A stretch of DNA of 45,331 nucleotides from a virus. The stretch covers positions 1 through 45,331 of the IMG/VR virus record IMGVR_UViG_3300037560_000110. One strand, given 5' to 3'. Below, one piece after another: positions 1 to 45,331 of this stretch (position 1 is its first letter; each line of letters starts with the position of its first letter). Under the pieces are notes generated by a model. The model searched no databases and was not told where the DNA came from. It saw only the letters and a list, made by a program, of their open reading frames with translations. The translations under genes and the position numbers were made by a program.

Positions 1-127
1 TCCCCGCCTCGAATACTGGCGACACTAAATGTAACCTCTCATCCTTCTGGCCTACTGGCTCCACTGGGATAATGCCTGATACCTCCTTTTTAAGAAGGGT
101 AATGATCGCTGGACCATTAGCCTTATT
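1..127. repeat. Exact terminal repeat (left copy)
   Basis: These 127 bases are identical to 45205-45331. The large terminase reading frame is continuous when the two copies are merged, so this is the overlap of a circular assembly. 127 is also a common maximum assembler k-mer length, which argues for an assembly overlap rather than a physical terminal repeat of the virion DNA. Confidence 0.95.
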
Positions 128-9811: not shown

Positions 9812-10030
9812 GTGTGTATTTTTGTAAAAAAGCTTATACACATTCCAACTATCTAATATAATATATATATATAATATATATATATGTGTATATATAGGTA
9901 GACCAAATAAATAAAATAGGGGTGGTGCCACCCCCCTTATCATTCTCGCTCATTCGTTGTTTTTGATTGTAATACCGGGGGGATGAATGTGTATGTTAGT
10001 GTGTATATTGCTTATACATCTTATACACTC
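9812..10030. other. Candidate replication origin region
   Basis: This non-coding stretch holds a 40-base alternating A/T tract (about 9856-9895) and several copies of a TTATACACA-like 9-mer in both orientations: 9834-9842 (exact TTATNCACA, the DnaA-box consensus), 9813-9821, 9885-9893, 9988-9996, 10000-10008, 10012-10020 and 10021-10029. A GC hairpin (GGGGTGG/CCACCCC, 9919-9934) lies between them. Iterons plus an AT-rich unwinding element beside the primase-helicase gene are what an origin looks like. Function is inferred. Confidence 0.55.
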
Positions 10031-12210
10031 TTAACCGGGGGACGTTTTTTTATAGAGTAACCAACTCTACCTGGCGTTATCTGAAAATAAGAATCTTCCT
10101 TAATAACTTGTTGGAACAGGCTTAATAACTGTGGCTTGTTCTGAACAAATTGTCTAGTAAAACTTGTAAAGCCAACGTTCTTATTAGGAATTTTCTCTTT
10201 AGCCCGCTTCAAAGCCTTCGATATGGCATCATTATTGTTCTCATATAGCTCCACGCACCTAAGGCAAAAATGAAGGCAAGTCCGGCCAGCCCAATCCAGA
10301 TCTCTCTTTGATAGCTCCAGGCGTCCATTTACGGGATGCAAATTAAGCAAGGCTATCCTGGCCGCAAAAATCTCTACTCGATCTTTGTAATACGAAAACA
10401 AATGCTCATTGGATGGTTGACGATATTTGTGGTTGTCAAAAGCCAGTTGAATATCAATGAGAAAATCTTCTAAGTGATCTGGAGTCACTACGTCAACATA
10501 GTCCCTATTGGTTTTATCGTTTTTCTTGCTCCCTTTTTTGAACCTGTCCAGGATAACCTTAAATCTATTCACCACCTGATCGCTCAGAGGGATAGCTTCA
10601 CCATATCTCCTCCTGGCTTTGTAAACCTCCCTGGTCATATGCGGAGCCTTGATATAGATAAGATCAAATCTTCTCACCCCACCACCACCAAAAAAACTGT
10701 TCCCACGGTATTCATCAAAATTTACAAAGGTGTCATTCATAATTAGATTAACGATCGGCTCATAGACCGGCGGCGTATCGCTACTTGTCCGTCTTGACTT
10801 ACCCATGAGATAGCTACCTTTTCCGAGTGTAGCTACCTCCAGAAAAGACTGGAGGGGAGAGTATTCAGTTTTACAAGTGAAAAAATTCTTGGCTTCGTCC
10901 GAAGATATATTAAGGGTCGGCTCTGCATTTAAATCATCTAGTAAAGCTCCGTCACTTACAGGCATGTTATTTATAAACCCCTTGTATGTATTTCCGAACT
11001 CATAAAATTGCCGTATAGCTTCATCAAGAACCCCTTTGTTATAGGACTTCCCAGAATTAGAGTCACCCAATTGAAGCACCCTCTGGCTTATATTTCTCCT
11101 GCCGTAGTAGGCAACTTCAGCAAAGAAATAAGCTGGAAAAGTTTGGCTCCCAAAAGTTATCGCCGCTTCTTTATTCAATCCTTTATTGTTTATCAAGTCC
11201 CTCACGATGTCGCCAGCAAGCCCATGAGGTATGTCTAGGGGATCTTTTTTCAGCTTTAAAATGTGGGCATAAATATTAGGAGCTTCCTCTGTCTTCTTTA
11301 GCGCGCTCAAGAATGTCATCCCACTGAGATCCGTTTCCTCATCTGGATAGTCAAAATGATTGATAGCTATTCTCCTAAGACTCTCAAAATCAAAACGCCC
11401 TTTGCCCTTTGTTCTCCTGGTGTTCATCTCTATGTATTGATCGTTAGTATGTTTGTTTGGTATCCCAGTCCTTTTGCTCCATTCCTCTTGATCGAAAAAT
11501 CTATCAACCAAAGCCGCCGATGTTTCATCATGAAAACTCTCTGCAATAAACGCCACTACCTTCCATGCATCACCTTCGCTATCCCAGAATGAAGGGTCTT
11601 TCTCCTTGATAAACTCAAGCCTCTTGACTACCTCCTCATAGTTTGCTAAAGGTTCTTTGACTACCTGATTTCTTTTGTTAGCCTTTGTCTTGGTGGATAG
11701 TATTTTGTTAGTGAAGTTATCAGGCAAGTCGCCAATCTCCGGTACTACCCCATCATTAGAAACAAAATAACCCTCTGAACCAGCCATAAAAACAACACAA
11801 CCTGGACCACTCAGGAGCTCTATACCGCTGTCAGTGTATCGATACTTATCAACAGCGAATGGTTTGGATAGCTTTATATAGTAGTGCTCTCCTCCGTTTA
11901 CCGTTCCTTCACAATACCATTCTTTTATATCTAGTTTAAATTCTTTGATCCACTTGCCGAAAAGCTCGCTCCCTTTCTTGCCCTTTTTGTTGTCGATATC
12001 TATCACCAGGTAATTATCTAATATCATTGCGAGGCTATTCTGACGCACGCTATATGTGGTGTTCAGCTCTTCGAGTGAAGATATATATGGTGTATGGTCT
12101 TTACCCCATTTCTTTGGGAAAATTACCTCTTTTTCTTCTTTACCTGGAATTATCTTAATGTTTACAGGGAAGTATCTCTGCTTACCGAATTTTTCAATTG
12201 TTTTTTTCAT
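10021..12210 (-). CDS. Primase-polymerase / helicase fusion
   Basis: This 729-residue replication protein probably primes and unwinds phage DNA. The N-terminal third resembles a primase-polymerase (bifunctional DNA primase/polymerase family): DID at residues 71-73, then NGGEHYY around 105-111 with the conserved His109, then SGIELLSGPGCVV. The C-terminal half has a P-loop, GDSNSGKS at residues 382-389, in a helicase-like ATPase related to DUF3987/D5-type proteins. The gene points away from the recombination operon, from which it is separated by 90 bases, and ends at the candidate origin. No separate DNA polymerase is visible in the genome, so host polymerase is probably used. Confidence 0.85.
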   Translation of the reverse strand: MKKTIEKFGKQRYFPVNIKIIPGKEEKEVIFPKKWGKDHTPYISSLEELNTTYSVRQNSLAMILDNYLVIDIDNKKGKKGSELFGKWIKEFKLDIKEWYCEGTVNGGEHYYIKLSKPFAVDKYRYTDSGIELLSGPGCVVFMAGSEGYFVSNDGVVPEIGDLPDNFTNKILSTKTKANKRNQVVKEPLANYEEVVKRLEFIKEKDPSFWDSEGDAWKVVAFIAESFHDETSAALVDRFFDQEEWSKRTGIPNKHTNDQYIEMNTRRTKGKGRFDFESLRRIAINHFDYPDEETDLSGMTFLSALKKTEEAPNIYAHILKLKKDPLDIPHGLAGDIVRDLINNKGLNKEAAITFGSQTFPAYFFAEVAYYGRRNISQRVLQLGDSNSGKSYNKGVLDEAIRQFYEFGNTYKGFINNMPVSDGALLDDLNAEPTLNISSDEAKNFFTCKTEYSPLQSFLEVATLGKGSYLMGKSRRTSSDTPPVYEPIVNLIMNDTFVNFDEYRGNSFFGGGGVRRFDLIYIKAPHMTREVYKARRRYGEAIPLSDQVVNRFKVILDRFKKGSKKNDKTNRDYVDVVTPDHLEDFLIDIQLAFDNHKYRQPSNEHLFSYYKDRVEIFAARIALLNLHPVNGRLELSKRDLDWAGRTCLHFCLRCVELYENNNDAISKALKRAKEKIPNKNVGFTSFTRQFVQNKPQLLSLFQQVIKEDSYFQITPGRVGYSIKKRPPVKSV

Positions 12211-12226
12211 GTTTTCCCTTTTTGTG

Positions 12227-12255
12227 TTGCTTTCTGTTTCCTGCTAGTCTACAAC
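12227..12255 (+). promoter_or_regulatory. Promoter of the replication/recombination operon
   Basis: -35 TTGCTT (12227-12232), a 17-base spacer and -10 TACAAC (12250-12255) on the plus strand, 45 bases before the first gene. The hexamers resemble those at 9226-9254 and 9181-9209, suggesting a shared early promoter type. On the minus strand a TTGACT (12261-12266) may serve the divergent primase gene, but I see no good -10 for it. Confidence 0.5.
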
Positions 12256-12300
12256 AAATAAGTCAACGAAACAAGAAAAGCAACCAAGGAAAAATTAGCC

Positions 12301-13035
12301 ATGCAAATCATCAAAGGAAAACAGCTAGGTAAACCCTTCCGAGGAATTATCTACGGCCTCTCTGGAGCGGGTAAATCTACCCTCGCCAACACTGCCCCAA
12401 AAGCAATCTTTTTAAACTGTGAAGATGGTTTAAATCAAATTGACTGTCACAAAACGCCGCTAATTAAAAGCATAGACGATCTTAAGAATTATCTTGCTTG
12501 GCTACTAAAGGAAAAACATGGATATGAAACGGTTGTTCTTGACACAGCAGACGCTATGGATCTCGTCATATCAGAGGAGATTTGTAGAACTGCCAATAAG
12601 AAAAGCCTTGGTGATTTTGGCTATGGTGCTGGGTATGACCTCCTGGTGAGAACATGGAACAGTCTACTAACCAGCTTCGATAGTCTACATGCCAAGGGTA
12701 TAAATACAATTGTCACAGCTCACCCTGTGATAATGAGCTTTCAAGATCCCACTGGCGAAAGCTATGACAAGTTCACCCTAAAGGTTAACAAAAAGGTAGC
12801 TGGCACACTGATAGCGAGAAGTGATTTCTGTTACTTCCTCGACTATGAGAAAGTGATTAAAAAGAATGCTCAGGACAAAGGTAAAGCCGTAGCAACAGGC
12901 GATAGGATACTACATACAAAGTGTAAACTGTCATTTGATGCTAAAGACAGGTATTCAATGCCTGAAAAAATTATAGTCAATGATAAGTTTAACTTATCTA
13001 TTTTTAGCGAACTAATAAAGCAGGAGAGAAAGTAA
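12301..13035 (+). CDS. Sak4-like RecA-fold ATPase
   Basis: This 244-residue P-loop ATPase resembles the AAA_24/Sak4 single-strand annealing-associated proteins of phages. Walker A is GLSGAGKST (residues 19-27) and Walker B is TVVLDTAD (about 77-84), followed by a sensor-like IVTAHP. It probably loads on single-stranded DNA together with the DUF669 protein encoded next. The ATG has AAGGA 10 bases upstream. It is the first gene of a six-gene plus-strand operon, overlapping the next gene by one base. Confidence 0.85.
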   Translation: MQIIKGKQLGKPFRGIIYGLSGAGKSTLANTAPKAIFLNCEDGLNQIDCHKTPLIKSIDDLKNYLAWLLKEKHGYETVVLDTADAMDLVISEEICRTANKKSLGDFGYGAGYDLLVRTWNSLLTSFDSLHAKGINTIVTAHPVIMSFQDPTGESYDKFTLKVNKKVAGTLIARSDFCYFLDYEKVIKKNAQDKGKAVATGDRILHTKCKLSFDAKDRYSMPEKIIVNDKFNLSIFSELIKQERK

Positions 13036-13421
13036 TGTTTTTTGACGGAACTGACGTAGAAGATGGTTGTTTGGCAGTTGGTAGATACAAATCTGTAATC
13101 GTAAGTGCTGAACACGCACAGAATAAAGCTGGTACAGGAAGCTTTGTTAAGGTTGAATTTGAGATAGTAGATGAATCTGGCTTTACAGTTATGAACTGGT
13201 ACAACATCGAGCACAACAATATTAAAGTTCAAGCGTTTGGCAAGCGTCAATTCAAGGAACTTGTCCAAGCTGCTATGGGTGTACCAACCCTATCCGATCC
13301 AAGTGATCTGGTAGGCAAAAAGGTAGAGCTTATGTTAAATGTTGAGGATAGTGATTTCGGCAAGCAAAATAAAGTTATGTCAGCTACGGAAGTAGACGAT
13401 AGTTTTGGTGGTCTTATCTAA
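13035..13421 (+). CDS. DUF669-family, probable single-strand DNA-binding partner
   Basis: This 128-residue protein matches the DUF669 pattern: an opening acidic strand, then GRYKSVIVSAEHAQNKAGTG, VKVEFEIVD, and a C-terminal half with KVELMLNVEDSDFGKQN. DUF669 proteins regularly sit beside Sak4-type ATPases in phages and are thought to bind single-stranded DNA. The start is TAATG-coupled to the ATPase gene. Confidence 0.8.
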   Translation: MFFDGTDVEDGCLAVGRYKSVIVSAEHAQNKAGTGSFVKVEFEIVDESGFTVMNWYNIEHNNIKVQAFGKRQFKELVQAAMGVPTLSDPSDLVGKKVELMLNVEDSDFGKQNKVMSATEVDDSFGGLI

Positions 13422-13753
13422 TGAAATACGCTGTGGACGCTACCCATTTACTTAAAACTAAAACCAAGAACAGAAAGCCTTGTACTATAGTTTATTTTTT
13501 CTGTGGTGGCGTCCACTTCCGTAAATGGCTTATGGAATGGCATCATAAGGAAGTTGAAAGACTTGTCATGAGTGAAGCCTTTGAAATAGATGTTTCATTT
13601 GCCAAGTCCAAAAAATTTCCTGAGATAACTATTACAAAATATTCCCTTCGATCGTATATTAAAAAATGTGAACATGTTTGGATTGATACCGACATGAAAG
13701 AAACTATTTTTATCTGCGAGAAATGTAATGCCACCATTGAGATCAACCGATAA
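13421..13753 (+). CDS. Hypothetical protein with C-terminal zinc-ribbon-like end
   Basis: This 110-residue protein is unrecognised. The body is basic and aromatic (FFCGGVHFRKWLMEWHHKEVE). The end reads CEHVWIDTD, then ICEKCNATIEI, the spacing of a half zinc ribbon (C-x-H ... C-x2-C). It lies in the recombination operon, coupled by TAATG, so a nucleic-acid role is likely but unproven. Confidence 0.65.
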   Translation: MKYAVDATHLLKTKTKNRKPCTIVYFFCGGVHFRKWLMEWHHKEVERLVMSEAFEIDVSFAKSKKFPEITITKYSLRSYIKKCEHVWIDTDMKETIFICEKCNATIEINR

Positions 13754-14186
13754 ACACAAAGCCGCCAAAGCATCCGCTCACCTTAGAGAGTTCTGTCTGT
13801 ACTATCACCAACCGCGAAAGCTCGCAAAAGAAGCCTCCAAGATTAAGGAGTTCCAGAAAAAGAAAGATGGTACGATAGGAAAGAAGTACCTAGTCAAATG
13901 GAGATGTTGCCAATGTGGAATCCTTACAGAAAATCCTGATATGGATCATAAGTTTCCAGTTGGTAAAGCTCCTCTTTGGCCTTATGAAGTAGGCGAATTA
14001 TTAGCCTACATTAGAAAGATTCTAGTTCCTATTCACGAATGGCAATGTTTATGTAAGCCATGTCACAAAGTAAAAACCGATGAGGAGAACAGAGAACGTG
14101 CAAGAAAAAGAAGAGAAGCCAAAGAAAACTTACGACGAAAAGAGAATAGTGAGAGAAAAAAAGTCGGAGAAACAAAAGTTAAATAA
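13728..14186 (+). CDS. HNH endonuclease
   Basis: This 152-residue protein has a zinc-bound HNH/treble-clef core: C-x2-C at residues 60-63, DMDH around 71-74 (metal-site His74), and LCKPCHK (C-x2-C-H) around 108-114, followed by KTDEEN. The C-terminal 30 residues are a Lys/Arg/Glu-rich tail. The start overlaps the previous gene by 26 bp. HNH proteins in this position may process recombination intermediates, help packaging, or be free-standing homing nucleases. The lack of terminase linkage leaves this open. Confidence 0.8.
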   Translation: MPPLRSTDKHKAAKASAHLREFCLYYHQPRKLAKEASKIKEFQKKKDGTIGKKYLVKWRCCQCGILTENPDMDHKFPVGKAPLWPYEVGELLAYIRKILVPIHEWQCLCKPCHKVKTDEENRERARKRREAKENLRRKENSERKKVGETKVK

Positions 14187-14424
14187 GCTCAAGAATAGGG
14201 TAGTCTTTTATCATATCGATGCTGTCATGCTTAAAATGATAATGAGAATGTCATGTATGACACAGGATCAGATATCTAAAAAGACAGGTATTCACTACAA
14301 CTTTATATCAGCCTTTGTCACCGGAAAGATGAATCCTTCCAGGGATGAACTTATGACGCTCCGGAGAGTATTAGGTTTTACACTTACAAAAGTTAACGCA
14401 AAGAAAATAGAGGTATTGGTATAA
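14080..14424 (+). CDS. XRE-type helix-turn-helix protein (start uncertain)
   Basis: The conserved part is a Cro/C1-type HTH: MTQDQISKKTGIHYNFISAF, then GKMNPSRDELMTLRRVLG, at about residues 60-100 of the longest frame. From the ATG at 14080 the protein has 114 residues, but 107 bp overlap the HNH gene and the extra N-terminus is only charged low-complexity sequence. An internal ATG at 14227 gives a 65-residue HTH protein, though without a clear ribosome site. It overlaps the next gene by one base. It could be the phage's transcription switch; no lysogeny gene partner is seen. Confidence 0.7.
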   Translation: MRRTENVQEKEEKPKKTYDEKRIVREKKSEKQKLNKLKNRVVFYHIDAVMLKMIMRMSCMTQDQISKKTGIHYNFISAFVTGKMNPSRDELMTLRRVLGFTLTKVNAKKIEVLV

Positions 14425-14939
14425 TGGGTTCATTAAATGATATGTTAAAAACATTAGAGCAAGTAGATGAAGGTTACATCGTTTTAGATAACGAGGAGAT
14501 GAAGGAGATTTTTGGTGATATCAAAGGGAAAGTCGATGGCATATATACCCTCGTATCAAAGCTTGAATCAGAATCAGCCAGGCTCAAAAAAGAAAAAGAA
14601 GCCATGGAAGCTGCCCATAAGAATATGGAAAACCGTATTAAATCGATTAAAAATTATGTCGAATACTGTTTAACTGTAAATGAAACTCCGCTCCTGGTGG
14701 GGGATAGCTACCAGCTTAAATTGAATATTCGAAACAGCGTTAAAAAGAAAGATGTAGAGCTTACATCGAATGCCGCCACAATCCTAAAACTTCGCTACCC
14801 TAGCCATGTTCCCGTCCGTGAGAAGTATGAGCTCAATGCTGGCGACATGAAAAAGGTATTTAACAAAGAGGATATGGAAAAATATTTTGAGACCGGTGAG
14901 AGTAGATCCGTGAAGTTCTCAGTACGTAAGATTAAATAA
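14424..14939 (+). CDS. Gp157-like protein
   Basis: This 171-residue protein resembles the Siphovirus Gp157 family. It has a long central coiled coil (about residues 40-80, KLESESARLKKEKEAMEAAH), then IKSIKNYVEYCL, and a C-terminal beta region. Gp157 proteins accompany annealing/recombination genes in many phages; their exact role is not established. It is the last gene of the operon. Confidence 0.8.
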   Translation: MGSLNDMLKTLEQVDEGYIVLDNEEMKEIFGDIKGKVDGIYTLVSKLESESARLKKEKEAMEAAHKNMENRIKSIKNYVEYCLTVNETPLLVGDSYQLKLNIRNSVKKKDVELTSNAATILKLRYPSHVPVREKYELNAGDMKKVFNKEDMEKYFETGESRSVKFSVRKIK

Positions 14940-15008
14940 GTTACAAATACACGTTGATTTGTAACAGCAGGTAATCGAAAGCCTCACCCCTCAATGAAGG
15001 GTGAGGCT
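14940..15008. terminator. Convergent intergenic hairpins
   Basis: Two stem-loops lie between convergent operons: GTTACAAAT/ATTTGTAAC (14940-14948 with 14957-14965) and AGCCTCACCC/GGGTGAGGCT (14980-14989 with 14999-15008). The second is GC-rich with a 9-base loop. On the minus strand it is followed by TTTCGATT; the plus strand lacks a good T-run. It is probably a weak or bidirectional terminator. Confidence 0.5.
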
Positions 15009-15073
15009 CCGAACGAAACAAACCAAGCGAGAAAAAGCCAATCTACGCAAAGGAGAACTAACATAATAACATG

Positions 15074-16102
15074 TTAGCGCTTCATTTGCATTTCAATTCT
15101 TTTACCCTCAAGTTTTCGGTTAACTTCAGCTATGATCTCGTCAATAGTCTTAACCTCAAAAGGACGTCGCCCTCCACCATATCCGGACATATCTTTCCAC
15201 GAAAAAGACTTGGGAAGGTCCAGAAATAAATTTCTCGAACTCTGATAACCCATTAGTTTCCAGTTTCCAAATAATAGTCCAGCTTCTTTTGCAACGGTTT
15301 GAGGGTTGAAATGACTGATACCTCTAGCTTCGTACCAATATTTTTCGCCCTGGATGTACTTGTATCCACGATAAACATAACTTGCACCAACAACAGTATC
15401 ATCTGTTCCTGAGATCTGAAATGAATCAGCTCTCATATTTGGCAAGTCTCTATAATAATTTGGCCATCCCATCCCAAAAGCTGGTTCAATTCCAACTACT
15501 GCAACCTTAGCGGAAGGGTATTTATTCCCGTATTTAAACCCGCAATGATTAGCACTTGATCCACCTTGGCTGTGGCCGGTAGAAAAGAACATGTCACCGT
15601 CGGCATGTTCTAAGCCTCTCAGATATTCCATCCCTTCCATGCACATCTTAGCGTCTCCGCTCTGAGTTGTTTCAGCACATGAAACTAAGTAGCCATGACT
15701 AGCAAGATGCATAGCAATACTTTGATAGAAGATACACCTGGCTCCAGTACCGTTACCGATAGAAGCTATAGGAGCCTTGCAATTGTCAGGAAGTCCAGTA
15801 GGCAAATAAAGCTTGTGGCCATTCCTATCCTTTTTCTTAACTGAGTATGGGCCAGGTTTTGTGAAATCAAGTCCATCCTGAACACAGAAATTTTTCTCTG
15901 GATCTGGGGTAGGTACTGGCGGCACTGGTTCAGGTTCGGGGTTTTCGCAATCTTGGCATGGTGGACATTTTGGACACTCTGGCTTTGGATAAGTTACGGG
16001 TATCTCAATTGGATTTGCGATTGTCTCTTCTATGATTTCCTCCACCACGCCACAACAAGATATTATACTTAGCATTAAAAATATTGATAGGTATTTAAAC
16101 AT
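15074..16102 (-). CDS. Lipoprotein alpha/beta-hydrolase (esterase/lipase-like)
   Basis: This 342-residue predicted outer-membrane or membrane-anchored lipoprotein begins with a signal peptide and lipobox IISC (Cys16 as lipidated residue), then a Pro/Glu/Cys-rich linker (residues 30-70). The rest is an alpha/beta-hydrolase fold: nucleophile elbow GHSQGG (Ser178), acid in GTDDTVV (Asp234 or Asp235), base in GISHF (His264) and a Gly-rich loop near 116-121. This layout is that of secreted polyester/cutinase-like or chlorophyllase-like esterases. AAAGGAG precedes the ATG. As the last gene of the late operon, near the endolysin, it may help lysis by attacking envelope lipids, or alter the infected cell's surface. 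The substrate is unknown. Confidence 0.8.
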   Translation of the reverse strand: MFKYLSIFLMLSIISCCGVVEEIIEETIANPIEIPVTYPKPECPKCPPCQDCENPEPEPVPPVPTPDPEKNFCVQDGLDFTKPGPYSVKKKDRNGHKLYLPTGLPDNCKAPIASIGNGTGARCIFYQSIAMHLASHGYLVSCAETTQSGDAKMCMEGMEYLRGLEHADGDMFFSTGHSQGGSSANHCGFKYGNKYPSAKVAVVGIEPAFGMGWPNYYRDLPNMRADSFQISGTDDTVVGASYVYRGYKYIQGEKYWYEARGISHFNPQTVAKEAGLLFGNWKLMGYQSSRNLFLDLPKSFSWKDMSGYGGGRRPFEVKTIDEIIAEVNRKLEGKRIEMQMKR

Positions 16103-16168
16103 TACGCTCCTTTACGTTCGTTTAAAACATTAAAAGCTAGGGTTTTTTACGCCCTAACTTCTTGTGAA

Positions 16169-16393
16169 TTACTTCTTGACAGCTGCTTTTTCTGCGTTTT
16201 CTTTCATTATTTCTTTGATAAGCTCGCCGATATACTTGGCCCACTTGTCAAGTGTATCGAAAAAATCATCTTTTGGATCAGCCGCGCGTCGAGAAACATA
16301 CTCGATAACAAATTTGATAACTGCTTTGATGTTTTTGGGATCAAAAATCCAGCGAAGAAGATACTCTCCAAGCTTCTTTAAAATAGCACTCAT
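16169..16393 (-). CDS. Hypothetical helical protein in lysis region
   Basis: This 74-residue protein is unrecognised. It is helical throughout, with an amphipathic N-terminal half (LGEYLLRWIF, IKAVIKFVIEYV) and a Lys/Glu-rich C-terminal helix. AAGGAG precedes the ATG. It lies between the endolysin block and the lipoprotein hydrolase. It could be an amphipathic pinholin-like or accessory lysis protein; no clear transmembrane span is present. Confidence 0.6.
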   Translation of the reverse strand: MSAILKKLGEYLLRWIFDPKNIKAVIKFVIEYVSRRAADPKDDFFDTLDKWAKYIGELIKEIMKENAEKAAVKK

Positions 16394-16593: not shown

Positions 16594-16955
16594 TAGTAAA
16601 CTCCATAACCACATTTCTTAGAGCCGTTACCAGGACGATCTAAATGGATATGTCTTGGATACAACCACCAGCGGAGTCCCAGGAGCATAGCTTTATCTAT
16701 CAGTATGTAAAGATCTTTGCTGTTTAAGTTGACTGTTGACACATCAACTGCTTTACAACGCATATGAAAAGAATTATCCGCTCCACCTTCGGCTGTATTA
16801 TGAGTTTGGCATCTGGCCCCGCTCTTTATATACAGAGGCTTTCCAACATCTCCCCGAATCTTATCGATGGCCATCATGATATAAGTGTCTTCGCTTATGA
16901 AAAGCCCACAACCACATTTACAAGCCGTTTCTTTTTCTGTGAAATATTTTAACAT
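16593..16955 (-). CDS. Endolysin, M15-type peptidoglycan peptidase
   Basis: This 120-residue protein is probably the lysis enzyme. It matches the peptidase M15 (VanY/D-Ala-D-Ala carboxypeptidase-like) core: SGARCQTHN (about residues 45-53), the zinc motif SFHMRCKAVD (His64, Asp71) and the terminal HIHLD (His102/His104, Asp106). An N-terminal Cys trio (CKCGCG, residues 12-17) is typical of this branch. There is no signal peptide, so export needs a holin. The start overlaps the preceding stop. Confidence 0.85.
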   Translation of the reverse strand: MLKYFTEKETACKCGCGLFISEDTYIMMAIDKIRGDVGKPLYIKSGARCQTHNTAEGGADNSFHMRCKAVDVSTVNLNSKDLYILIDKAMLLGLRWWLYPRHIHLDRPGNGSKKCGYGVY

Positions 16956-17134
16956 ATGACGTCATCCTCTATTAGTCCTAGCTCTGTACGGAGGTATTTT
17001 ACTTCTGTGATAAGAGGCTCTAGGTATCGAACTAAGCCCGTGAGAGTGCCAGCAGCGTCATCTGTGAATGCCCATAGATGTACGTCTTTATATTTCTCGA
17101 TCTCTTTTAAGATAATCGATAGATCTCTATACAT
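16949..17134 (-). CDS. Hypothetical small protein
   Basis: This 61-residue protein is unrecognised. It is helical with a Leu-rich second half (GTLTGLVRYLEPLITEVKYL). The ATG at 17134 has GGAG 6 bases upstream; an in-frame ATG at 17146 lies inside that site and is less likely. It overlaps the endolysin start by 7 bp and is probably part of the lysis transcript. No obvious membrane span. Confidence 0.55.
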   Translation of the reverse strand: MYRDLSIILKEIEKYKDVHLWAFTDDAAGTLTGLVRYLEPLITEVKYLRTELGLIEDDVIC

Positions 17135-17146
17135 ATTGTTCTCCAT

Positions 17147-17670: not shown

Positions 17671-17871
17671 TCACTTCCTACTTACAAAGTAATTCCCCAT
17701 TAGTGGGAATACTAAACCCACGAATATAGTTAGAGCGCCAAAGACACCATTCAATCTTGATATTGATGTGGTGTTTTTTTGTGTTTGCTCCTGGAGAGAT
17801 ATAAAAATTTCCATCTTGCCTTTGATAAATCCCACGTCTTCAATCATTTTGATTTCTTGATCTTCTGTCAT
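17671..17871 (-). CDS. Holin-like / XhlA-like membrane protein
   Basis: This 66-residue protein has an N-terminal helical, charged half (residues 1-38) and one C-terminal hydrophobic span (VFGALTIFVGLVFPLMGNYF, residues 43-62). The layout is that of XhlA-like holin-associated proteins or single-span type III holins. It is the best candidate for the pore that releases the endolysin, about 700 bases downstream. The start is ATGA-coupled to the LysR-like gene. Confidence 0.55.
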   Translation of the reverse strand: MTEDQEIKMIEDVGFIKGKMEIFISLQEQTQKNTTSISRLNGVFGALTIFVGLVFPLMGNYFVSRK

Positions 17872-18170
17872 GACGATCCTTCAAAAGCTTTGATAGCATT
17901 GGAAGCTCTAGAAAAAATCTCTATCCCTTTTGTGGATAGTTCTATTCTGCTAGGCTTTGATTTTCTTGGTTTAAAAATATCATCACCGTAAATATCTCTG
18001 AGCTTTGTTACTCTCTGAGAGATCGCGCCTCGCGTTATATGAATATCCATGGCGATAGTGATATATTTACCTCCCTCAAGAAAGAGCTTCATAATAAAAA
18101 GATCCTGTAGATCCAACATCCTCAATTTTTTAAGTTGAGGATTTAGTCTATTATGCTCATCATACGCCAA
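17868..18170 (-). CDS. LysR-type DNA-binding domain protein
   Basis: This 100-residue protein reads as the N-terminal winged HTH of LysR-type regulators: LDLQDLFIMKLFLEGGKYI, then ITRGAISQRVTKLRDIYGDDIF, then SRIELSTKGIEIF. The usual substrate-binding domain is absent, although LysR proteins are normally about 300 residues. The start overlaps the propeller-like gene by 28 bp. As a late-operon gene it may adjust host or late phage transcription, and the lack of an effector domain suggests constitutive or partner-controlled binding. Confidence 0.7.
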   Translation of the reverse strand: MAYDEHNRLNPQLKKLRMLDLQDLFIMKLFLEGGKYITIAMDIHITRGAISQRVTKLRDIYGDDIFKPRKSKPSRIELSTKGIEIFSRASNAIKAFEGSS

Positions 18171-18859
18171 GCCTTACCACCTTCTGTCACTGCAACGATG
18201 TTGCCATCATTATCGTAGGCGATTGCCTCAAGCTGTCTTTTAGTTTTGAATGTATGGGTATATTCCCCCATAATTTCATCACCGTCAAGGACAAACTCAA
18301 TGATTCCGTAGTCATGGTTTGGTCCCTTCTCATGAAATGAGATAACCAACTTGCCGCCAGCCATATCCATCCCAGTAACATACCTCCCCACTATGGCAGG
18401 AAGTAAGATAAATTTTTGAGCCTTTCCTGAATTTGTCTTATATAACCAACCACTAGAGTCTTTTTTAATGAAATAAAAGAAACCATCTTGGAAAGCCATT
18501 GCCTCACAGTCAGAGGGGTAGTCTGAAAAGTGGTGGCCCATACCATTATTGTATTCCTCATGCCAGGTACTCAGAACGTATGTGGTGACTCCTCTACCTT
18601 TCCTTGCCCCATGTGCGTCAAGAATGTATATGTAGTCGCCAACCACAGATATATCTTCCCAGTCCCTATTGCGTATGGGTACTTTTCTCTTGGATCCGTT
18701 TTCATACTGGACCCCGTAGTAAGTATAGATCTCAGCTAAGTTACCGGAATCAGGGTGAGCGTACAATGCTCCATCGATTCCTACATCGATACCTGAGATT
18801 TCTTTGGCTCCAATATTTGGAAGAAAGAAGGAGGCTAAAATAATTGTCTCTAATAACAT
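18143..18859 (-). CDS. Secreted beta-propeller-like protein
   Basis: This 238-residue protein starts with a probable signal peptide (LLETIILASFFLPNIGA). Repeated strand patterns follow: EDISVVGDYIYILDAHGA, CEAMAFQDGFFYFIKK, VTGMDMAGGKLVIS and LEAIAYDNDGNIVAV. The DWED-I ... D-x-x-x and EA-x-x-x-x-G motifs resemble secreted phytase-like or SdiA-regulated propellers of bacteria. AGGAG precedes the ATG. It lies between the tail fibre and the holin-like gene. A periplasmic or surface role in the infected cell, such as envelope change or superinfection exclusion, is a guess. Confidence 0.6.
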   Translation of the reverse strand: MLLETIILASFFLPNIGAKEISGIDVGIDGALYAHPDSGNLAEIYTYYGVQYENGSKRKVPIRNRDWEDISVVGDYIYILDAHGARKGRGVTTYVLSTWHEEYNNGMGHHFSDYPSDCEAMAFQDGFFYFIKKDSSGWLYKTNSGKAQKFILLPAIVGRYVTGMDMAGGKLVISFHEKGPNHDYGIIEFVLDGDEIMGEYTHTFKTKRQLEAIAYDNDGNIVAVTEGGKAWRMMSIID

Positions 18860-18874
18860 GGGTTCTCCTAAACG

Positions 18875-21800
18875 TTAATTCAACTTATACACAGTGATTG
18901 TTAATCGTCCAGCGGTATTGGTGGTAGGTGGCCACATCTTAGTCCCGTCTGCTGAATAAAATGCAAATGAAATATAACCGGCAGGAAGTCCCGTTGTCAA
19001 TACACTAGAACTCCAACCTACTTTAGAAACAGAAATAGGCCTTCGGTTGGCTACCTCAATACCTTGAAGTGTGAAGGTAACTTCATACTGACTACCAGCA
19101 GCAAAATAGGAAGTGCCTACCAAGTCATTGGAGGGGTCACGAACTAAATAGGCAAGCCCATTAGCCTGATAAACCTTTAAACCTTTTCTCCTCAATACTG
19201 AGGATGTAACTTCTATGTAAGGTGTTCCAGTGTAATAAAACCTTTCTGGATTTAATACAATGTAGGCAATAGGGACTTTTATTGGGACTATTGCCTCTAG
19301 GGTAGTCAGCCTACCCTCGGTTGCAGTTACTCTTGGTTCTAAGGCATCCAGCCTACCATCGTTTGTAACGCTACGAATAACATTTGCATCTGATCGAGCT
19401 TCGTTGTTTGCGATAGTTACATCTTGAACATCATTGGCATTGTCTACGTAAGCCTTGACCGATTGTTGAGTCGGTAGGTGTTGATCACTATCAGAGTTTA
19501 ACCCATCCTCATCTAGCACTGGAATATAAGGAACTGAGTCCTCTGTAGATATAAAGGTAGAGGTAGTAGTCGGCACCCACATTGTAGGGTGTTGATCTCC
19601 TTGCTCCCCATATTTGTAAGTAGAGAACTGATCTTCTGTACCATATACATCGGAAAATACAGGTATGACAACACCATCTCTTCTTATCTCGCCCGGACTT
19701 AAACCTGTAGCAAGGTTAAACCTTGAGTTGTTACCTCCTAGAATATGGTAGCCTACAAGTTTATCAAACTCCCACTTAACACCGGCAGCATCATAGATTA
19801 CCAAAGGCCCATCGTCTAGATACTCTAAGTCTGGTGGGTTAGTCATGTCTCCATAGAACGCCAGCTCACTGACAGACTGGTACACCTGAGAATCATTGTC
19901 GTCAAAATCTGGAATTACCGCCGGTACTTCTTTAAAATATGTGGGAGGATATGAGGCACTAGTAAAGTTTTCGATAGCCTCTTTATTAAGAAGGGATCGT
20001 ATTGTGTTACCATCAGCCTGATCTTGAGCAACACCAATAGCCACATCTTGAGAGTCATTTTTATTGTTTACAGATGTAATGTCTGCTTTAAGAGCTATAT
20101 CCTCTTGGTTTTGAACACTACGAATAACATTCTGGTCTGACTGAGCCTGAATGTTTCCAATATTTACATTCTGAACTGCATTGCCATTGTCTACATAAGT
20201 CTGTACTGCTGCATCCCCTGCAATTCTAGATTGTTCTTCAGCAGCAAGGCCATTTAAAGCTGATAGGATATTTGTTGTGTTGCCAGCAATATCATTATTG
20301 TTAGCCACTATCATAGCTACTTGTTCAGAAGTTATAGTACTTGGCTTATTGAGTATCCTTGCATCACCAGCAGTAGCGTCCCAGTCCGATTGGACATTCG
20401 CATTCGCATTAGAGGGAGCATGAGCTGACACAGAATGGTTATAAGCACTAACTCCTCTATCCCCACGGTAAGCCGTTGCGGATGTAGTGCCTAGAACTAA
20501 ACCGGAGGCCATCTGTACATATACAGTACCCGCCCACCGAAACGATTGGTTAACGTCAATAGCAACGTAAATTACATTAGGTAATCCAGTAGCCGGAAAA
20601 GCGGCCTCATTTGCATACTCTTGAACATTGTCTATGTAGGCCGGTAGCTGACTCTCTGGCACCATACCGTCTACTAGGTCCGGTACAGATACCCCTACTT
20701 CTATAGAGTCTAGCTTAGACTGAGCCATATTAAATATAGCAGAGGAGTTAGTCCCTATGTTTGTAGACAGGAGATCATTGATGTTATCCACATAAGCTTT
20801 AACCGATTGTTGTGTTGGTAGTCTAGTAGCAGAGTCGCTGACTAAATCATCCTCATCTATACTATCTACGTAGACAACATTTTCAGGTGTTTTTCTCAAC
20901 ATACTAGATATGGAGGAGGAGCTAATTGATATAATAGGATCAACATCTACGTAATTAAAGTCAGCAAATGTACCGTCCTCACTAAAAGAGGGTACAGGTA
21001 CACCATCTTTTGTTACGTCCGTGCCAGTAGCAAAACGAAACCTAGTGTAGGCCCCAGTAGTGTCTACCAAATCTATATTCTCAAATATCCATTCTACTCC
21101 AGCACCGTCTACAATAGTTAGCCTATGATTTAAGTACTCAGATAGGTCTGGTCCTGTTATACCATCTGTATAAAACCGTATTGATTGTAGATATTTTGCG
21201 AAATATGATTCAGCAGGATCATCAAACCCCGGAATAAGTACTTGCGTTGGTACATCTAAATAATCTTGAACTGAGTGATCTTGTGACACCACCTCTTCAT
21301 TTATAGCCAGATTGTCCTGCCATTTAGTGTCGTCCCACTCACCAGTCACACCAGCATTAAGACAGGTGTAAATACTGAAGTGATCCCCAGTAGGGTTATG
21401 CCAGATAGTATTTCCTGTAGTATATGTGTTTTCTTCTTTGTAGGCAAAGTAGCTTGGTACTTTATGGACTTCCAAACTTTGTACATTCAATTCTACCTTT
21501 GGCTGTTCCCCATCCCCAAGTAGTGTAGTGTCTTCAGAGAAAGTATAGCAATAAATATACATCACCCCCTTGACCAGCGGAACATGAGGGTCAAGGCTTA
21601 TTAAGTTTGACTGTCCGGGCACTACTACCTTACCACCTCCAAAATTAGTAAATGAGTTTACACTCACGCTTTCATAAATTATGTTTCCAGATTCTTGGTG
21701 TATAATGTCAAATCTTAATCTAGTTCCTTCAGGGCAAGAAACTACATCGAGATTAACATCCTGTAGAACGATATCCGCCGGAGACAGGAAATAACCAGGT

Positions 21801-35052: not shown

Positions 35053-35574
35053 TTAAAATGGAGAAGCCGGTATCTTCGATTTCACCTGATTTAATGATTG
35101 CTTTTTAAGCCCTACAATAAGCTTATTTAAAGCAGTATCCTTTATACCCTCTTCTCTATAGCCAGCCAGGAACATAATGAGGTTATCAGTTAATATCCTC
35201 CACTCCCTGATCTCCTCACCGTTCGAGAAAGTAATCGGTGGAATACTCTCGATAAAAGTAGACGCTGCTAGGATTGAAGTTCCTCCGTTTTTATCTCTAG
35301 CTAAAAACGGAAGCACTCCAAACCCTGTCAGGTCATCAAGATAATGAAAGGTAGATAACCAATCGTTAGAAGGTGAAGACGCCAGGAGCCTAACTACAAG
35401 AGTACCCGATCGTAGTTTGTTCTTTACCCTGGCGGCATCCCCATCGATCCCTTTTACAAGTCTAAATCTAGCCTCGTCATATGACGCCTCAAAGAAGTCA
35501 CTAGCGAAATCCTGAAGAGGATAGCCAGCGAAGGTGATTATAAAACCTTTAGGATCGAAGTATCTAACAGTCAT
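35053..35574 (-). CDS. Tail tube paralogue (possible tube initiator/terminator)
   Basis: This 173-residue protein is related to the tube protein encoded just upstream. Both open with FDP, share GIDGDAARVK versus GQGDVCRVK and the phrase SPSND, and have similar strand order. This copy is longer and has a helical C-terminus (LNKLIVGLKKQSLNQV). In contractile tails a second tube-like protein caps the tube at the baseplate or neck. Its position before the chaperone fits that role; the exact end is unknown. Confidence 0.65.
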   Translation of the reverse strand: MTVRYFDPKGFIITFAGYPLQDFASDFFEASYDEARFRLVKGIDGDAARVKNKLRSGTLVVRLLASSPSNDWLSTFHYLDDLTGFGVLPFLARDKNGGTSILAASTFIESIPPITFSNGEEIREWRILTDNLIMFLAGYREEGIKDTALNKLIVGLKKQSLNQVKSKIPASPF

Positions 35575-36036
35575 TTACGCAGCCTCTTCAGTCTTAGCCT
35601 TTGGATACTTTAAGTACAGTTTAGAAACATTGCCTACATTATAGAGAGGAGTATGAGCGCACTTAAAAACCCAAGAAATCTCTTGAGGAGAATTAGCAAT
35701 AGATAAATCAGGCTTTTTCTCAACAGAAGCATCAAAAGACTGGAGTATTAATTTCGAGTCATAATAGACGTCGATCTCTGTCACTCCCTCATTCTTGCTT
35801 TCATCGGCATTAGCAATGAGCGTAAAAAAATCATTAGAAGGAGAGCACTGAAGCAAGGAAAAAGTTACGTCTGCCATAGTGTTATTTGTTTTAACTCTGC
35901 AAACATCTCCTTGGCCTCCAACTTGGTAATTCCACATTGGGTCGGTTCTTGCGATAGTTACTAGAGTTTCCCCTAGACCTACTACGGGATTCCCGCCTAC
36001 GTTTATCACAATTAAGAGAGGGTCAAAAGATTCCAT
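35575..36036 (-). CDS. Tail tube protein, DUF3277-like
   Basis: This 153-residue protein follows the sheath gene, as tail tubes do. It shows GGNPVVGLGETLVTIARTD, GDVCRVKTNNTMADVTFSL, and SPSNDFFTLI, the pattern of DUF3277-type tube proteins. It should polymerise as hexameric rings to form the inner tube. Confidence 0.8.
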   Translation of the reverse strand: MESFDPLLIVINVGGNPVVGLGETLVTIARTDPMWNYQVGGQGDVCRVKTNNTMADVTFSLLQCSPSNDFFTLIANADESKNEGVTEIDVYYDSKLILQSFDASVEKKPDLSIANSPQEISWVFKCAHTPLYNVGNVSKLYLKYPKAKTEEAA

Positions 36037-42376: not shown

Positions 42377-43249
42377 TCAAGCCTCTTCTAATTCCTGGAA
42401 ATAAGGAATAGCACTGCATCGACAATTCCAAGGCTCTCCAGGGATGGTTGGACTACTCGAAAATATCGGGTCAATAGCCGGTCCATAATTCTCCCCCTGT
42501 GGGGTAACTCCAGATGAACCATCCCAGGAAAATAATAGTCCATCCATAGACTCGTGTGTTTCCCTAACCCTCTCGTCATCTGCTGTTTGCCATCGGTACA
42601 ACTCTACTCCTGAAGCCCTTTGACGCTTTTCATTGATTGCTCCAAGAGCTGTAGACACCTCATTCCTTGCAATGAACTTAGCCCTGTTCACAGCCTTCTT
42701 TAATGGGTTCTTAGGCATATCGATTGCTGATAAGGATGATACTGATCCCCTGATATTTTTGGCTATCTCTTCCCATCGAGATCCTGTGGTCAATCCCCTG
42801 GATATCTCCCCTCGGATATCATCGACAAGATCCTTGGTATTCTTTTGGATCTTACCCCTGGTGGTCATAACTGAGTTATCGATGATCTCCTGAGTGTTGG
42901 AAGGGAACAGGGTTATCTGCTGCCTTTGGAACTCTCTAATCGTATCCTGTTCAAGCTCCCCGTCAATCTCTTTAAAAAAATGCCTTAGCTCCCCATCAAT
43001 ACGAGGCTTTCCCCACCGGCTTAAAAATTGAGCTTCCACCAGGTCAACCAATCCCATCAATGTTTCACCTGGACTCTCGTCTGTATTGACCTGTGAGCTA
43101 GTGAAGGATTGCGCCAGGTGCTCGATCCTTGGAACTAAGAACCTGTTGACCAACATGTTTAGATCTTCCAACATCTCGATATTAAGCCGCTCCAATTGCC
43201 TCTCAAACTTCCGATTCTTCTTTGATGTCTTCTTAGGAGCTCTGGCCAT
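42377..43249 (-). CDS. Head morphogenesis protein (Mu F / SPP1 gp7-like)
   Basis: This 290-residue minor head protein has the typical C-terminus: RWQTADDERVRETHESMDG, then PWNCRCSAIPYF. Helical regions precede it, including FIARNEVSTALGAINEKRQ. It is likely ejected with or bound to the portal. The start overlaps the end of the mini-protein gene before it. Confidence 0.85.
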   Translation of the reverse strand: MARAPKKTSKKNRKFERQLERLNIEMLEDLNMLVNRFLVPRIEHLAQSFTSSQVNTDESPGETLMGLVDLVEAQFLSRWGKPRIDGELRHFFKEIDGELEQDTIREFQRQQITLFPSNTQEIIDNSVMTTRGKIQKNTKDLVDDIRGEISRGLTTGSRWEEIAKNIRGSVSSLSAIDMPKNPLKKAVNRAKFIARNEVSTALGAINEKRQRASGVELYRWQTADDERVRETHESMDGLLFSWDGSSGVTPQGENYGPAIDPIFSSSPTIPGEPWNCRCSAIPYFQELEEA

Positions 43250-45047: not shown

Positions 45048-45331
45048 GAGTATGCCCTTAATCTAGCTAGTCCTGTTAATTTACTGAATCTCTCTAATGC
45101 CTGTGACATACAATCCACGATGTCATCATTTGGAGAAGCTGGAAATGTTGTCAGCTCCTCCACAAATACCTTAGTCAATGGATGATCTGCCGGAAAGTGC
45201 ACATTCCCCGCCTCGAATACTGGCGACACTAAATGTAACCTCTCATCCTTCTGGCCTACTGGCTCCACTGGGATAATGCCTGATACCTCCTTTTTAAGAA
45301 GGGTAATGATCGCTGGACCATTAGCCTTATT
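45044..45331 (-). CDS. terL: Terminase large subunit, C-terminal part (continues at base 1)
   Basis: This is the C-terminal end of the gene at 1-1339; 45205-45331 repeats 1-127, so the unique part here is 45044-45204. It carries the last nuclease motif, PNDDIVDCMSQALERF, with the metal-binding Asp residues of the RNase H fold. The stop overlaps the portal ATG. A GTG at 45268 could look like a start, but the frame is continuous with the N-terminal domain. Confidence 0.95.
   Translation of the reverse strand, partial: NKANGPAIITLLKKEVSGIIPVEPVGQKDERLHLVSPVFEAGNVHFPADHPLTKVFVEELTTFPASPNDDIVDCMSQALERFSKLTGLARLRAYS
45205..45331. repeat. Exact terminal repeat (right copy)
   Basis: Identical to 1-127. 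It should be counted once when the genome is closed, giving about 45,204 bp. The join is inside terL and preserves its reading frame. Confidence 0.95.

Follow-up and report, generated by a model that had tools for sequence, protein, structure and literature searches.

A predicted lipid-anchored esterase of PETase/cutinase kinship encoded beside the endolysin gene in two phages with unrelated particles

What use would a phage have for a serine esterase predicted to be anchored to a membrane of its host, and why should the gene lie beside the lysis genes? The question is raised by IMG/VR record IMGVR_UViG_3300037560_000110, whose 45,331 nt were analysed in full and are called the window here. 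The window is taken as a complete genome because an exact 127-bp direct repeat stands at both ends. The phage is contractile-tailed (tail sheath, baseplate, major head protein), and no phage integrase was found in its genome, so lysogenic conversion would not be expected. A single gene of the relative L093 (12347-12766) is matched by both of two adjacent tail genes (35053-35574 and 35575-36036, minus strand); the stretch 35053-36036 is a gene duplicated in tandem, whose product is probably of tail tube type.

The predicted lipoprotein and its family

The open reading frame was confirmed exactly as the preliminary description had placed it (Table 1); it opens with ATG, and a good Shine-Dalgarno site (AAAGGAG, 16107-16113) ends 4 nt ahead of this start. 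The N-terminus, MFKYLSIFLMLSIIS followed by C16 and C17, has the positively charged n-region and hydrophobic core of a lipoprotein-type signal, and IISC at residues 13-16 agrees with the bacterial lipoprotein pattern [LVI][ASTVI][GAS]C. Residue +2 after the lipobox cysteine is Cys, not Asp; the enterobacterial rule by which Asp at +2 retains lipoproteins in the inner membrane is inapplicable to such a protein. Much of the stalk is poorly modelled (AF2 pLDDT below 50 for residues 33-53). The lipobox and the Pro/Cys-rich stalk, both reported in the preliminary description, hold up: this is the sole strict lipobox in 45 kb, and neither feature is due to chance, since the homologue in a second phage (below) has its own lipobox, MVA-C, and the same PECPKC and Pro/Asp stalk.

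An alignment of 41 proteins, comprising the window esterase and 40 proteins from bacterial and archaeal genomes, shows the triad Ser178/Asp235/His264 to be invariant, together with the GHSQG box (G176-G180), Gly118-Thr119 and His132. The triad layout first described is thereby upheld, and its alternative acid, Asp234 or Asp235, resolves to Asp235. The oxyanion residues T88 and Q157 of HaloPETase1 find their aligned counterparts in T119 and Q179. As a description of the sequence, the earlier account is confirmed; its interpretation is supported in part, namely for a phage gene, a lipoprotein, a serine esterase fold, an endolysin neighbour and the lack of a lipoprotein spanin.

Table 1. Features of the window, with positions and the grounds for each
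Feature	Position	Strand	Basis or remark
Terminal repeat, left copy (exact 127-bp direct repeat), inside TerL	1..127		repeat search
Terminal repeat, right copy (127 bp)	45205..45331		repeat search
Primase/helicase, common to the second phage	10021..12210	-	genome comparison
Replication/recombination operon: Sak4-like, SSB-like, 110 aa, HNH, HTH, Gam-like	12301..14939	+	same order in the second phage
Two strong hairpins between convergent Gam-like and esterase genes	14940..15009		probable two-way transcription end
Lipoprotein esterase CDS (342 aa)	15074..16102	-	ORF list and Shine-Dalgarno site
C-terminal extension, residues 309-342, predicted helix 320-341	15077..15178	-	model; missing from the second phage's protein
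Alpha/beta-hydrolase catalytic domain, residues 73-308	15179..15886	-	sequence matches, alignment, model
Catalytic His264	15311..15313	-	alignments
Catalytic Asp235	15398..15400	-	alignments
Nucleophile Ser178 in GHSQGG (176-181)	15569..15571	-	alignments
Oxyanion-hole region G116-N-G-T119	15746..15757	-	six-cysteine clade and HaloPETase1 alignment
Stalk, residues 17-72: Glu/Ile-rich part, PECPKCPPCQDC, Pro-rich	15887..16054	-	low model confidence; PECPKC also in the second phage
Lipobox Cys16 (IIS-C), predicted lipidation site	16055..16057	-	lipobox scans; homologue has MVA-C
Signal peptide, residues 1-15 (MFKYLSIFLMLSIIS)	16058..16102	-	sequence and lipobox scans
Hairpin with short T tail between 74-aa and esterase genes	16127..16165	-	fold, -16 kcal/mol with flanks; possible weak terminator
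74-aa Lys-rich protein right before the esterase gene	16169..16393	-	ORF list
M15-family single-domain endolysin, 120 aa	16593..16955	-	Pfam 5e-17, PHROG endolysin 5e-19; homologue beside the second esterase
65-aa gene upstream of endolysin	16949..17146	-	homologue in same place in the second phage, 45%, 4e-10
Holin candidate: 66 aa, C-terminal TM segment	17671..17871	-	TM scan; no family match

To judge by its sequence, the esterase domain is a divergent relative of the PETase/cutinase-type polyester hydrolases, with an alpha/beta-hydrolase fold and the Ser-Asp-His triad at the family positions. The independent support for this kinship lies in the sequence E-values: phmmer against solved structures matched the window esterase to the P. 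mendocina lipase 2fx5 (5e-12), dsPETase05 (5.8e-9) and HaloPETase1 (7e-9), and a profile built from five six-cysteine sequences matched 2fx5 at 9.7e-30. In the AF2 model, residues 81-210 have a pLDDT of about 90 or above. VIA-align placed this model closest to 9k0h (Z 30.1, rmsd 2.0, 230 residues), with 2fx5 next (Z 30.0); the fold similarity does not count as evidence separate from the sequence, since the AF2 input alignment included family members. One further profile comparison was not independent either, the window protein being present in both alignments. A viral structure library returned general alpha/beta hydrolases only, with query TM-scores of about 0.4.

Within the family the phage enzyme is an outlier, because it has no match to PF12740 even at E 1; the gathering cut-off is reached neither by the window esterase (no match at E<=1) nor by its phage homologue (no match at E<=0.1). 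Bacterial relatives score as PF12740 'PETase'; of the two close ones described below, L108 passes (37 bits vs 28) and L115 fails. PHROG, NCBIfam and PADLOC gave no family match for the esterase. Chlorophyllase-like enzymes and LysB had both been put forward for comparison, and neither suggestion was borne out by sequence, the kin being PETase/cutinase-type polyesterases. Chlorophyllase and PAF-acetylhydrolase were rejected as the family, the phage proteins matching their Pfam models only below the cut-off, and kinship with LysB was rejected since no sequence homology with D29 LysB was detectable (BLASTP E 0.7; profile comparison probability 0.4%). Like the esterase, the mycobacteriophage LysB proteins (D29 gp12, Ms6 LysB), which act as mycolyl-arabinogalactan esterases, are alpha/beta-hydrolase serine esterases encoded near phage lysis genes; LysB, however, belongs to Pfam Cutinase PF01083 and is not a lipoprotein, and the phage esterase differs on both counts. 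LysB is a possible functional analogue.

Comparison with the published definition of type III PETases (PMC12442448) locates the divergence. The lipase box G-H-S-Q-G and the Thr/Gln oxyanion residues are present, whereas the subsite-I Tyr, the two disulfide positions and the extended loop 3 (assessed from the alignment alone) are not: Ala208 stands at the Tyr position, the C-terminal CxxC is missing and about nine residues are deleted at 166-175. On these three grounds, the Tyr, the disulfide positions and the loop lengths, the type III label was rejected, and cleavage of PET is not implied. What the esterase has in common with the type III PETases and the P. mendocina cutinase-lipase (2fx5, HaloPETase1 9hl5, dsPETase05 9k0h; PF12740) is the fold (Z 29-30), GHSQG, the Thr/Gln oxyanion positions and the triad; what sets it apart, besides Ala208 and the shortening before the nucleophile, is the predicted lipid anchor with its Pro/Cys stalk and a different set of cysteines. 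It would represent a new, phage-borne and lipid-anchored form of a known hydrolase family, and it places a PETase/cutinase-like fold, with a predicted membrane anchor, on a phage. No report of a phage-encoded PETase-like enzyme was found in the open-access literature searched, where absence is weak evidence.

A second phage and the bacterial relatives

A GHSQGG-centred scan of IMG/VR found a second carrier, IMGVR_UViG_3300033153_010880 (G002; 34,730 bp), which a 114-bp terminal repeat marks as a complete genome. Its esterase (L094, 314 aa) is 48% identical to that of the window and has the full active site, so the gene is conserved, with its active site intact, in another complete phage. It has the lipobox MVA-C, PECPKC and a long Pro/Asp stalk; the C-terminal extension is absent. 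The gene adjoins an M15 endolysin 42-44% identical to the window endolysin, beyond which comes the counterpart of the 65-aa gene. In addition, the whole Sak4-to-Gam operon, in the same order (36-57%), and the primase/helicase occur in both phages. No main virion genes are common to them, the terminase, portal and capsid of G002 being different. The esterase thus belongs to a replication-lysis half that is combined with two unrelated particles, and a role in the virion is unlikely since the phages have no virion genes in common. The pair shows a replication-lysis-esterase module common to two unrelated virion types. For the replication module itself (window 10021-14939; L096:1-3185 with L097:13105-14724), exchange across virion types is clear.

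Two carrier phages are known, no others having been found among 50,697 phage records (tblastn) or by pattern scans of IMG/VR. Single-protein and family-profile scans of IMG/VR missed G002 and the other scans gave nothing or the window contig only; more carriers may be missed, as only the GHSQGG-centred scan recovered G002. Portal-, capsid- or Sak4-related phages yielded no esterase gene, a little informative result drawn from 13 distant records, several of them fragments and some without the region covered.

Profile searches of about 1,700 sampled genomes, a sample beyond which closer cellular relatives may exist, found two close bacterial proteins. L108 (G015 C125, a Desulfobacterota MAG) is a chromosomal lipoprotein with lipobox LFG-C and a Pro/Thr stalk, is 33% identical and lies beside metabolic genes. 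L115 (G1034 C390, a Myxococcota MAG) is a tandem-domain protein with 40-42% identity across the catalytic domain, and no cellular protein closer than about 42% was found. The two tandem catalytic domains of L115 (L115:1-1764) are 77% identical to each other and follow an acidic Gly-rich repeat linker. In an IQ-TREE phylogeny with 47 rows, the phage proteins pair as sisters (100/97); together with L108 and L115 they make up a clade (100/100) to which none of the 42 other family members belongs. Cysteines 73, 108, 123 and 142 are present in all five rows of this six-cysteine clade, and all six in L115; pairing of Cys154 with Cys187 is suggested by their joint loss in L108. Triad and oxyanion residues are invariant across the clade, as is N117-G118-T119. 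The bacterial members thus have the four core cysteines and, in L108, also the lipobox and stalk, whereas they are bacterial genes with 33-42% identity over the catalytic domain, one of them a tandem duplicate. The phage gene is best read as an old phage gene of bacterial origin rather than a passing host gene; long-term retention in phages is indicated because the phage proteins are monophyletic inside a strongly supported clade with bacterial proteins.

The lysis region and the spanin question

The lysis gene said to adjoin the esterase is indeed there, as an M15-family endolysin (Table 1). No holin or spanin was found by homology in the window lysis region, nor was a coiled-coil inner-membrane partner with an N-terminal TM segment (i-spanin). 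Two further minus-strand genes of this part of the genome deserve mention. One, in the late block next to the holin candidate, encodes a 100-aa protein (17868-18170) that weakly matches a LysR-type HTH. The other, located between tail-fibre and lysis genes, encodes a 238-aa protein (18143-18859) with an apparent signal peptide and weak matches to phytase-like and strictosidine-synthase-like propellers, a second probable exported protein.

Lipoboxes were sought from every ATG, GTG and TTG start on both strands, a charged n-region and a hydrophobic core being required. Under strict settings the esterase has the only lipobox in the whole 45-kb genome; relaxed settings add two short plus-strand ORFs (20277-20423 and 42894-43031) opposite minus-strand virion genes. 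No other credible lipoprotein was found in any frame of the complete window genome, and because the genome is complete this absence is informative: no o-spanin of lipoprotein type and no u-spanin is detectable by such a scan. The esterase itself does not have the make-up of a spanin, as it is a 342-aa enzyme whose strongest hydrophobic stretch is the N-terminal signal. It resembles Rz1-type o-spanins in being a phage lipoprotein with a Pro-rich segment encoded near the endolysin, but differs from those short lipoproteins in its length and enzyme domain, and no i-spanin partner is seen in the window genome. The preliminary description had proposed that the esterase might replace spanins, none being evident. 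The absence stands, in a complete genome scanned in all frames; the replacement does not follow from it, because 91 of 677 surveyed phages (about 13%) have no identifiable spanin (PMC6139136). That survey includes spanin-less phages with no known route of outer-membrane disruption and leaves their passage of the outer membrane as an open question (PMC6139136), for which the esterase, in a complete genome without another lipoprotein, is a defined and testable candidate.

Transcription layout bears on the same issue. In the window, the esterase gene is the last of a minus-strand block, downstream of the endolysin gene and on the same strand; the hairpin ahead of it (Table 1) was not listed for the minus strand by a simple terminator scan. 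In G002 the esterase gene lies on the strand opposite the endolysin gene and converges with it. Ahead of it lie the gene of a 161-aa lipoprotein and a 50-aa ORF, the stop codon of which overlaps the esterase start, and a GC-rich terminator-like hairpin with six T's stands at its 3' side, so that it apparently has its own transcription unit. Co-transcription with the lysis genes is not conserved between the two phages; the neighbourhood is. The strand and hairpin layout of G002, with the hairpin before the window esterase, fits a separately expressed cargo gene. Promoter scans gave chance-level results only. The part in lysis envisaged at the outset is thus weakened by the arrangement in G002, while the endolysin neighbourhood on which it drew holds in both phages.

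Two other genes of G002 lie close by. The 161-aa lipoprotein (L097:9105-9587, plus strand; LLTA-C) has no family match, stands directly upstream of the esterase unit and has no counterpart in the window. A 102-aa protein (L097:11688-11993, minus strand), which has a TM segment at its N-terminus and perhaps a coiled coil and is encoded directly upstream of a 62-aa gene and the endolysin, is an i-spanin or holin candidate. The two could be a spanin pair.

Candidate roles and host

We tentatively favour, as the most likely role, a modification of the host surface at about the time of virion release, brought about by an exported carboxyl-ester hydrolase with a lipid anchor. Surface modification is preferred because the gene seems to form a separate unit and because phage outer-membrane lipoproteins that alter the host surface are known, T5 Llp among them (PMC9586334). 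The esterase would be made in the late phase of infection, as strand and position suggest; the host would export it and attach lipid at Cys16, and the Pro-rich stalk of some 55 residues would hold the enzyme off the membrane. There it would cut an ester of the host envelope, an acyl or acetyl group of a surface glycan, lipid or lipoprotein, and the altered surface would let progeny be released without being bound again by debris or by already infected cells. Such action would be like that of a receptor-destroying esterase or of a T5 Llp-type exclusion lipoprotein, achieved here by catalysis. T5 Llp and Cor, like the esterase, are phage-coded lipoproteins and change the host surface during lytic infection (PMC9586334); Llp, in contrast, is a small, non-enzymatic binding protein that acts on a receptor barrel, and no homology is claimed. 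The phage lineage would have acquired the gene long ago from the bacterial six-cysteine family of delta-proteobacterial MAGs.

The endolysin neighbour in both phages also fits a role in lysis. After wall cleavage by the endolysin, the esterase could attack outer-membrane lipids in place of spanins, much as LysB acts on the mycolate layer of mycobacteria; we judge this reading less likely than surface modification but a live rival. It draws on the Ms6 precedent for an esterase in the third step of lysis (PMC5707550), on the existence of spanin-less phages without a known outer-membrane route (PMC6139136), on the position of the window gene downstream of the endolysin on its strand and on the lack, across the complete genome, of any further credible lipoprotein that might serve as Rz1-type or unimolecular spanin. 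It is countered by the convergent, separate unit of G002, whose 102-aa and 161-aa proteins could be an ordinary spanin pair, and by the facts that PETase-type enzymes are not established phospholipases and that the esterase has no sequence homology to LysB; the host, moreover, may be monoderm. We consider unlikely the wider proposal that some phages of diderms, lacking spanins, disrupt or weaken the outer membrane by means of a PETase-fold esterase with a lipid anchor, a LysB-analogous catalytic step by a different hydrolase family in a module spread across unrelated particles. Should the host be monoderm, the outer-membrane readings are void: the enzyme would be anchored outside the cytoplasmic membrane and act on wall polymers or lipids, and spanins would be irrelevant. 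Faecalibacterium phage FP_Brigit is indeed among the best phage matches of the major capsid protein, TerL and endolysin, and Shine-Dalgarno sites are strong, but these matches are only 33-39% identical, other top matches are to proteobacterial phages and the nearest cellular homologues are delta-proteobacterial. The endolysin, moreover, is a single 120-aa domain without a wall-binding domain, which is the usual form in phages of diderms. We consider the monoderm reading improbable, although assignment by best phage match failed on conflicting hosts and the Gram-negative host of the preliminary description is itself an inference.

It is improbable that the gene is metabolic cargo whose product nourishes the infected cell through breakdown of a polyester, lipid or wax outside it, as the enzyme's free-living bacterial relatives may do. 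Those relatives are secreted polyester or lipid hydrolases, and the six-cysteine homologue L108 is a lipoprotein encoded beside metabolic genes; yet the phage gene sits with late and lysis genes, not with nucleotide or energy genes, the gain within one lytic cycle is doubtful and both phages show only the anchored form. Highly improbable is a recent host gene, carried by chance and without function for the phage. The bacterial origin of the family would allow this, but two phages with unrelated virions keep 48% identity, the triad, six core cysteines, the lipobox and the stalk, while the closest cellular protein found is more distant from the window esterase than is its phage homologue. The preliminary description had held that homologues recognisable as host genes carried by chance would overturn its reading; the second phage, with its different virion genes, points the other way.

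G002 carries, at L096:4342-8367 and L097:6144-7070, genes resembling a nonulosonate (pseudaminic/legionaminic-like) pathway, among them a Polysacc_synt_2 dehydratase, CTP_transf_3, a class III aminotransferase, a GNAT acetyltransferase and NeuB. Such a pathway is unusual in a 35-kb phage and may supply glycans for the virion or the host surface.
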